Positions 6,688 through 7,433 of a stretch of DNA of 25,516 nucleotides are shown in pieces (positions within the stretch are counted from its first letter, which is position 1; every line of letters begins with the position of its first letter). The stretch is from a virus, in IMG/VR virus record IMGVR_UViG_3300005590_000069, positions 1 to 25,516 of that record; one strand, written 5' to 3'. The notes beneath the pieces are model-generated. The model worked only from the letters and a program-made list of their open reading frames with translations, made no database searches and was not told the DNA's origin. The position numbers were made by a program, and so were the translations under genes.

Positions 6688-6951
6688 TCAGTGATCGGTG
6701 CTAGAAAACAGTTCCGTAAAATCAATATCCAGAGACTCCGCCTTGTCCTCAACCATCTTTTCTATGGCGGTTCGCTTGGTGTATTTCATGCCGCCCAAAC
6801 CTGACATCACAGTCATGCGTGCAGCCAATTGATCCAGAAGGACCGCGTGCTTCTTGCTGATCATGATGGTCAAGGTATCTAGCGTTTTATCGTTTTGTGC
6901 GGCCGTTTGGGTCATATCTTGATTCTCGCTCGGGGTGTTATTTTCGTCCAT
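6688..6951 (-). CDS. 87-residue protein, possibly ribbon-helix-helix-like
   Basis: Polar N-terminus (1-24), then DTLTIMISKKHAVLLDQLAA (about 25-44), a Met/Gly-rich turn, and YTKRTAIEKMVEDKAESLDI. A short beta strand followed by two helices, the second starting after T-K-R-T-A-I-E-K, resembles ribbon-helix-helix DNA-binding proteins, but the match is by shape only. Start ATG at 6951 with an AGGA Shine-Dalgarno. Its 5' leader contains the hammerhead/structured RNA at 6972-7155, so its expression may depend on that element. Confidence 0.65.
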   Translation of the reverse strand: MDENNTPSENQDMTQTAAQNDKTLDTLTIMISKKHAVLLDQLAARMTVMSGLGGMKYTKRTAIEKMVEDKAESLDIDFTELFSSTDH

Positions 6952-6971: not shown

Positions 6972-7155
6972 ATCTCATAGAACCCTTGAAGGGTGAGCCG
7001 CCTAGGTCACCAGTTATTCCCCGGCTGGGGTGACTCCGCGGTACGCTTTTGCGTTTCGACCGTAGTCTCATCAGCCAACCCCCGAAGGGGTGCCGGGCCA
7101 GATGCTTCCTTGTCAGCGGCTCTGGGAAGCCCACGGTTCAAGGGTTCTATGAGAT
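6972..7155. repeat. 184-base structured element with perfect 19-bp terminal inverted repeats
   Basis: ATCTCATAGAACCCTTGAA at 6972-6990 is the exact reverse complement of 7137-7155. Inside, on the minus strand, further complementary pairs are visible: GAGCCGC (7123-7117) with GCGGCTC (7001-6995), GCTTCC with GGAAGC, CCAGA with TCTGG, CCCGGC with GCCGGG, and GTCACC with GGTGAC. Some of these cross and so imply a pseudoknot or alternative folds. The element lies between the tRNA and a small gene and codes for nothing convincing. It is read here as a folded RNA; a small mobile element with terminal inverted repeats is the alternative. No clear target-site duplication is visible. Confidence 0.75.
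7020..7097 (-). ncRNA. hammerhead ribozyme, type I topology (open at stem I)
   Basis: On the minus strand the conserved core is complete. CUGAUGA (7074-7068) is followed by stem II, GAC-UACG-GUC (7067-7058), with a stable UNCG-class loop. Then GAA (7057-7055), then stem III, A-CGC / GCG-U, with loop AAAA (7054-7043), then A17 (7042), giving a GUA cleavage triplet and predicted scission between 7042 and 7041. Stem I is UGG/CCG (7077-7075 with 7041-7039), a 7-base bulge, then GGGGU/ACCCC (7082-7078 with 7031-7027) and CCCGGC/GCCGGG (7097-7092 with 7025-7020). The first ACCCC (7091-7087) can compete for the same G-run, so a switch is possible. Activity is inferred, not shown. Confidence 0.75.
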
Positions 7156-7184: not shown

Positions 7185-7213
7185 ATGTTATCGAACAAAT
7201 AAACTCACGTCAA
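7185..7213 (-). promoter_or_regulatory. possible sigma70-like promoter upstream of the hammerhead RNA
   Basis: Leftward TTGACG (7213-7208), 17 bases, TAACAT (7190-7185), in an A/T-rich stretch. Initiation near 7178 would start the transcript about 25 bases before the 19-bp terminal helix. The -10 box is only a moderate match. Confidence 0.35.
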
Positions 7214-7265
7214 CATAAAATATCAAAATTATCTATTTGGACAATTGATATTTTGGCGTTCTAAA

Positions 7266-7338
7266 TCAGGGGCACAGGATTCGAACCTGTTTCCTTGGGA
7301 TCACAACCCAAAGATTTATCCACATAAGCTAGCCCCTA
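7266..7338 (-). tRNA. tRNA with GUG (His) anticodon
   Basis: A 73-nt cloverleaf on the minus strand. Acceptor stem TAGGGGC / GCCCCTG (first pair U-G), D arm GCTT/AATC with one mismatch, anticodon stem TTGGG/CCCAA around loop TTGTGAT (anticodon GTG), a 4-base variable loop, and a perfect T arm ACAGG-TTCGAAT-CCTGT. No CCA is encoded. The base before position 1 is T and position 73 is A, so the usual His identity pair G-1:C73 is absent; alphaproteobacterial tRNA-His is the known exception of this kind. It probably supplements His decoding during infection. Confidence 0.9.
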
Positions 7339-7433
7339 AATGCGTCTGGCGGGGTTGCCTGACCAAGCCACGCTACCTCATCGCATGGACACCCAGCCAA
7401 GTACCACCCAGAATCGGTGTCTATTCTCAGACG

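Follow-up and report, generated by a model that had tools for sequence, protein, structure and literature searches.

Introduction

Many hammerhead ribozymes are known in DNA genomes and, to our knowledge, little has been proven about their role beyond viroid-like replication. The locus described here raises the same question for a virus. A reading of the letters of record IMGVR_UViG_3300005590_000069 (25,516 nt, referred to as the window, meaning this whole stretch of DNA) reported a complete hammerhead in the leader of a phage gene (6688-6951) and next to a tRNA. To what does such a ribozyme belong, and what would its cleavage serve? The phage origin is borne out by terminase, portal and head genes which, together with the adaptor gene, lie on the strand of the RNA in this 25.5-kb record. 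The first reading overlooked a 19-bp outer stem (7155-7137 / 6990-6972) and the RNA which it encloses; the parts of both ribozyme and RNA are collected in Table 1.

Table 1. Features of the ribozyme, the enclosing RNA and their surroundings in the window.
Feature	Position	Strand	Basis
Whole RNA element, outer stem P1 to P1'	6972-7155	minus	fold, model match
P1 5' arm, perfect 19 bp with 6972-6990	7137-7155	minus	sequence, fold
P1 3' arm	6972-6990	minus	sequence, fold
Module A: CCGUGGG (N_A = C7136), hairpin P2, loop L2, tail CAUCUGGCCCGGC	7092-7136	minus
Hairpin P2 of module A	7130-7125 / 7109-7104	minus	covariation in 82 distinct cores
Loop L2 of module A	7124-7110	minus
PK2 5' strand GAGCCGCU, in loop L2, partner 7002-6995	7115-7122	minus	own versus shuffled partner score
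PK1 5' strand CCCGGC, partner 7025-7020	7092-7097	minus	covariation
Linker, tail A to hammerhead; window-specific hairpin CCCC-UUCG-GGGG (7090-7079)	7078-7091	minus	sequence
Type I hammerhead insert; 3' strand of stem I doubles as part of module B	7036-7078	minus
Hammerhead stem I, UGG/CCG, 3 bp	7077-7075 / 7041-7039	minus
CUGAUGA	7074-7068	minus	read from sequence
Hammerhead stem II, GAC-UACG-GUC	7067-7058	minus	read from sequence
Hammerhead GAA	7057-7055	minus	read from sequence
Hammerhead stem III, ACGC-AAAA-GCGU, A15.1-U16.1 present	7054-7043	minus	read from sequence
Module B: CCGCGGA (N_B = C7041), hairpin P4	7005-7041	minus
Hairpin P4 of module B	7034-7030 / 7010-7006	minus	covariation in 82 distinct cores
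PK1 3' strand GCCGGG, in P4 loop	7020-7025	minus	covariation
Conserved GGGGAAUAACUG in module B	7022-7011	minus
PK2 3' strand GGCGGCUC, module B tail	6995-7002	minus	own versus shuffled partner score
Lone tertiary pair	G7132-C7013	minus	covariation in 82 distinct cores
Weak sigma-70-like promoter TTGACG-17-TAACAT, between tRNA and RNA	7185-7213	minus	9/12 match
tRNA-His(GUG), 129 nt upstream of RNA core	7265-7339	minus	ARAGORN; Rfam 43.1 bits

The Hammerhead Core

All elements of a hammerhead occur in order on the minus strand, as had been claimed, and this is confirmed both by the sequence and by a covariance model (R1) built from 33 relatives with the window excluded, which scores the site at 43.1 bits (E=1.5e-7) and the runner-up site in the window at 15.9 bits only. 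The topology is indeed that of type I, with stems II and III closed by loops, and is conserved in 55 distinct related hammerheads. The predicted cut falls on the minus strand between A7042 (position H17) and C7041; the sequence yields the position originally given, and the core around it is conserved in the same 55 hammerheads. Judged by these letters, the window ribozyme is a real type I hammerhead core and very probably cuts itself, although cleavage may be slow because GUA replaces the usual GUC triplet and because the stem I of 3 bp has no proven loop-loop contact. Another hammerhead-like match (19126-19080) lies inside the head gene with E=0.12 and is regarded as due to chance.

None of the Rfam hammerhead models, which had been proposed as a check, matches the window even at E<=10, probably because stem I has just 3 bp, and a relative from E. 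coli reaches 24.7 bits with the type I model (RF00163), below the gathering score of 34. This threshold is a detection rule, not a biochemical criterion. The Rfam miss is a problem of sensitivity and not a sign of absence, as model R1 finds the window hammerhead; the Rfam result taken alone would have dismissed a motif that is real. Another proposed check, covariance in related phages, supports the ribozyme: the first pair of stem I covaries and the catalytic core is kept in 55 distinct copies.

Stem I had been drawn as a long, bulged helix, of which only the proximal UGG/CCG stands. The extension is rejected since its partner bases covary elsewhere: those of the 5-bp segment are part of hairpin P4, and the 6-bp segment, CCCGGC/GCCGGG, does form a helix, namely pseudoknot PK1 of the enclosing RNA.

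Relatives of the Enclosing RNA

A blastn search with the region returned short matches to Arthrobacter, Mycobacterium, Enterobacter and Microcystis phages, to 15 genomes of E. coli (the match examined, in one of them, lies in a lambdoid prophage) and to a phage-like Aquitalea plasmid, which carries terminase genes; side-by-side comparison of these matches revealed one RNA common to all. A pattern describing module B alone was then found in 64 viral contigs and in 3 contigs of bacterial or archaeal metagenome-assembled genomes, with module A close by in every match whose contig did not end too early. The first pattern left out P2, the variable positions of P4, PK2, N and the hammerhead. With further patterns, 91 unique members were collected from phages, many of them unrelated to one another, prophages and the phage-like plasmid, with hosts ranging from Mycobacterium to cyanobacteria, and about 20 additional relatives missed by the strict parser are visible by eye and with a second model (R2). 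Counts given below out of 91, 82 and 55 refer to unique members, distinct cores and distinct hammerheads, respectively. That the RNA family is real is virtually certain.

Two paralogous copies of the RNA lie in tandem, about 170 nt apart, on the minus strand of contig L057 (modules A/B at 1283-1549), one with the G-C and the other with the U-A type of the lone pair described below. In Pectobacterium phage Pappous (L164:2035-2151) the RNA is annotated as a hypothetical protein gene, which is probably spurious.

Architecture and Pseudo-Symmetry

In the window, the segment 7165-6960 folds at -91.6 kcal/mol (z=-5.7 versus shuffles), and 7136-6991 scores 45.2 bits (E=1.2e-9) with a model of hammerhead-less relatives from which the window was excluded. 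One plan is common to both modules: a strand NCGYGGR leads into a hairpin, and a tail follows. The consensus of module A reads N CGUGGG, hairpin P2 and CAUCUGG-CCCGGC, and that of module B reads N CGYGGA, P4 with the loop CCCNGYYGGGGAAUAACUG, C(U)AGG and a variable stretch of 6-8 nt; some letters of module B were fixed in the search patterns, so that conservation at these letters is partly by construction. Each tail grips the loop of the other module: CCCGGC of the A tail pairs with GCCGGG in the B loop (PK1), and the B tail pairs with the A loop (PK2). The linker between tail A and the hammerhead differs in relatives.

These helices are borne out by covariation among the 82 distinct cores. 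Standard pairs are present in 94-100% of the cores for P2 and in 81-82 of the 82 (99-100%) for P4, both with covariation, and likewise in 81-82/82 for PK1, whose inner pairs exchange GC, AU and CG. Variable helix positions show three or four base-pair types, and for the truly variable pairs none of 2000 shuffles matches the observed values. PK2 scores 7.4 with its own partner as compared with 4.1 (maximum 4.5) for shuffled partners. A lone pair joins the first of the three G in CGUGGG (module A) to the C of AAUAACUG (module B); it is G-C in 67 cores and U-A in 15, consistent in 82/82, with 9 joint changes on the tree. The outer stem P1 scores at least 9 in 23/74 relatives versus 1.3 expected.

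An unusual coupling links the first positions of the two modules. N_A and N_B are identical, not complementary, in 79/82 cores (shuffle maximum 47), the shared base being C, G, U and, once, A. The coupling ranks fifth among all column couplings, which contain no better partner for either position, and the 25 and 24 changes of N_A and N_B on the tree are jointly explained by 25. Pairing in stem I was considered as the sole cause and rejected, as the identity persists in 25/26 hammerhead-less members. This rare identity covariation points to an internal two-fold pseudo-symmetry, which makes the RNA a good target for structure determination; by analogy with the OLE dimer discussed below, we infer that N_A and N_B would meet near the pseudo-two-fold axis.

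The order of the modules is not fixed: A-B occurs in 80 and B-A in 11 of the 91 members. The B-A members come mostly from enterobacteria and in most of them P1 is closed by a loop; in A-B members P1 is open, or tRNA flanks the RNA. P1 is commoner in hammerhead-bearing A-B members (20/52 versus 6/28), as the pathway proposed below predicts, but not significantly so (p=0.14).

The Hammerhead Across Relatives

A hammerhead is found in 62/91 members, directly 5' of N_B in both module orders. Among the 55 distinct copies, CUGANGA is present in 53 and both GAA and A15.1-U16.1 in all; H17 is C in 38, A in 13, U in 4 and never G. In these copies the conserved NCGY of module B serves as the 3' strand of stem I, whose first pair covaries (GC 32, CG 17, AU 5, UG 1); stem I measures 3-6 bp among members. 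The hammerhead of Mycobacterium phage Gaia (L006:1465-1515) carries UUGAUAA, a compensatory C3U/G8A change, and is in effect a natural double mutant of the core with U3-A8 for C3-G8. In the hammerhead of contig L019 one extra base is inserted in CUGANGA.

About a third of the relatives lack the hammerhead and retain the rest of the RNA, with 2-5 nt or linkers of 14-37 nt at its position. As far as comparison of these sequences goes, the hammerhead is an optional, detachable insert of a larger non-coding RNA and, since hammerhead-less members exist, cleavage would not be essential to the core.

Genomic Setting

The tRNA reported beside the hammerhead was confirmed by ARAGORN and Rfam. The promoter-like sequence that separates it from the RNA is barely above shuffles and is not evidence of function. 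A strong terminator-like hairpin (7468-7437, minus strand) lies upstream of tRNA-His, so that the tRNA and the RNA may lie at the start of a new transcript.

Association with tRNAs extends to the family: a tRNA lies within 50 nt in 17/91 members versus 4.6 expected, and tRNAs within 500 nt are on the strand of the RNA in 23/23 cases. Hammerhead-less members are more often inside tRNA arrays, and a hammerhead is present in 9/23 tRNA-adjacent members versus 53/68 others (p=0.0014, kinship ignored). In several members (L004:1440-1500, L006:1342-1411, L163:1838-1924) N_A starts within a few nucleotides of a tRNA or tRNA-like 3' end, which would fit a 5' end of the RNA made by tRNA processing.

No conserved downstream gene, as expected of a cis-acting leader or riboswitch, was found among 79 downstream ORFs of relatives; these make up 69 clusters that are unrelated to one another. 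Terminator-like hairpins were seen after 9 members versus 0.75 expected. A leader or riboswitch reading of the RNA is disfavored by the lack of a conserved downstream gene; unshared downstream genes, together with nearby same-strand tRNAs above chance, suggest a stand-alone RNA rather than a leader switch.

Copies in E. coli prophages are found in the late leader, flanked by Q and the holin gene and immediately 3' of the terminator of this leader. Lambda and HK75 have other short inserts in the same hairpin slot, 3' of tR' (L161:450-520, corresponding to lambda J02459 ~44793-44863, and L162:410-475, respectively), which were considered as short relatives and rejected, as the core model has no match in L161 or L162. 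The annotation of CUS-3 calls the flank of this slot a boundary sequence.

A Proposed Maturation Pathway and its Rivals

The reading favored here, to which we give a probability of roughly 60%, is that of a stand-alone phage non-coding RNA that probably acts in trans, has a compact pseudo-symmetric fold and is processed by its own predicted hammerhead. After transcription, the type I hammerhead would cut between H17 and N_B, leaving a 5'-OH exactly where module B starts. The NCGY strand, which can leave the ribozyme because stem I has only 3-6 bp, would then take its place in the core, and the halves would be held together by P1 (19 bp in the window), PK1 and PK2. Genes of A-B order with an open P1 and genes of B-A order with a looped P1 would reach the same topology, in which P1 connects the halves and the opening lies at the hammerhead; in hammerhead-less members a short linker would join the halves. 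Our best guess, drawn from a setting like that of ROOL and GOLLD, is that the finished RNA may scaffold a protein or another RNA that is produced late in infection. The wider proposal, slightly less likely than not, is that of a new class of phage RNA defined by pseudo-symmetric halves, a mutual loop-tail grip, the N_A = N_B contact, tolerance of permutation and maturation by a hammerhead into a two-piece or permuted molecule.

The ribozyme could instead be a passenger that spreads into a tolerant loop of a functional RNA and cuts without a role. On a tree of poor resolution, the hammerhead is gained or lost some 18 times, and the insertion loop also tolerates ends (B-A order) and linkers of 14-37 nt; such a passenger is nevertheless unlikely considering that the catalytic positions are near-invariant in 55 distinct copies and that the conserved NCGY of module B is built into stem I. 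Hammerheads can ligate as well as cut, and successive ribozymes might free B-P1-A monomers for ligation into circles, in the manner of viroid-like RNAs and retrozymes. The B-A order is the expected product of two successive cuts, tandem units recur every 224 nt in contig L121 and two copies are present in L057; however, nearly all members are single-copy with one hammerhead, not the two in tandem that flank a unit of viroid-like RNAs or retrozymes, tandem units were found only in these two contigs, and hammerhead-less members exist, all of which makes a source of circular or permuted RNA quite unlikely.

The original prediction placed the cut in the leader of gene 6688-6951; as a leader ribozyme, the hammerhead would set the expression of that gene. 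The location holds, the end of the RNA being some 20 nt upstream of the ATG at 6951, and hammerheads directly upstream of phage genes are known, for example in haloviruses HF1/HF2 (PMC3088659). The function does not follow the location: with unrelated ORFs and an excess of terminator-like hairpins downstream of relatives, and with a hammerhead that a third of them dispense with, a leader ribozyme is very unlikely. Most improbable is an element acting at the DNA level, in which P1 would be a recombination hairpin and the RNA unit a mobile cassette, given that helices, pseudoknots and hammerhead covary in the manner of RNA; it would accommodate the hairpin slot of lambdoid phages, with its other inserts in lambda and HK75, and the unit of L121, whose repeats of 224-nt period (L173:177-1157, L174:269-591) lie next to a gene for an integron integrase (TIGR02249, 292.5 bits, cut-off 265). 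The hairpin between the L121 units resembles attC as judged by eye.

If the wider proposal is correct, hammerheads would have a non-viroid job, the opening of a covalent link inside a folded RNA. The hammerhead is here tied to a well-defined and widespread phage RNA, which some members carry without the ribozyme and which comes in two permutations. Since culturable phages possess it (Gaia, Karkharias, Constance, M. abscessus prophages, Pectobacterium phages and E. coli prophages), its role is directly testable.

Relation to Known RNAs

The ribozyme by itself belongs to a known type, and the enclosing RNA is apparently what is new. Members share with hammerhead type I (RF00163) all positions of the catalytic core, the three stems, the topology and the H17 rule, and differ in that stem I, of 3-6 bp, is built on the conserved NCGY of another RNA domain. 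The enclosing RNA matches no family of Rfam 15 and was not found in the open-access literature, which yielded phage hammerheads and ROOL/GOLLD; an earlier mention in subscription articles or supplements is possible. With its nested ribozyme it is apparently undescribed so far.

Hammerheads in intergenic regions of phages and prophages, a location shared by the present members, have been described for instance in PaP3 and Bcep176 (Perreault et al. 2011, PMC3088659); these two were rejected as members as they lack the two-module RNA and give only sub-significant model matches. ROOL and GOLLD are pseudoknotted RNAs of phages and prophages, of unknown function and often near tRNA islands (PMC12286853). 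The family of the window RNA is also pseudoknotted and close to phage tRNAs, whereas its core is of about 100 nt (versus 600-800 nt), carries a hammerhead and occurs permuted; the ROOL and GOLLD models of Rfam have no match in the window, L004-L006, L008 and L009 at gathering, nor in the window and the L008 and L011 regions at E<=10. Permutation also involves the hammerheads of type SGC, which are non-circularly permuted (PMC10085705), but there the ribozyme itself is permuted and here an ordinary type I ribozyme has its host RNA permuted around it. A parallel to the proposed N_A = N_B contact, like-to-like pairs at a symmetric interface, is the OLE RNA dimer with its two-fold symmetric contact of A-A pairs (PMC12286853); in OLE two copies of a large RNA, unrelated in sequence, form a homodimer, whereas the pseudo-symmetry proposed here lies within one chain.
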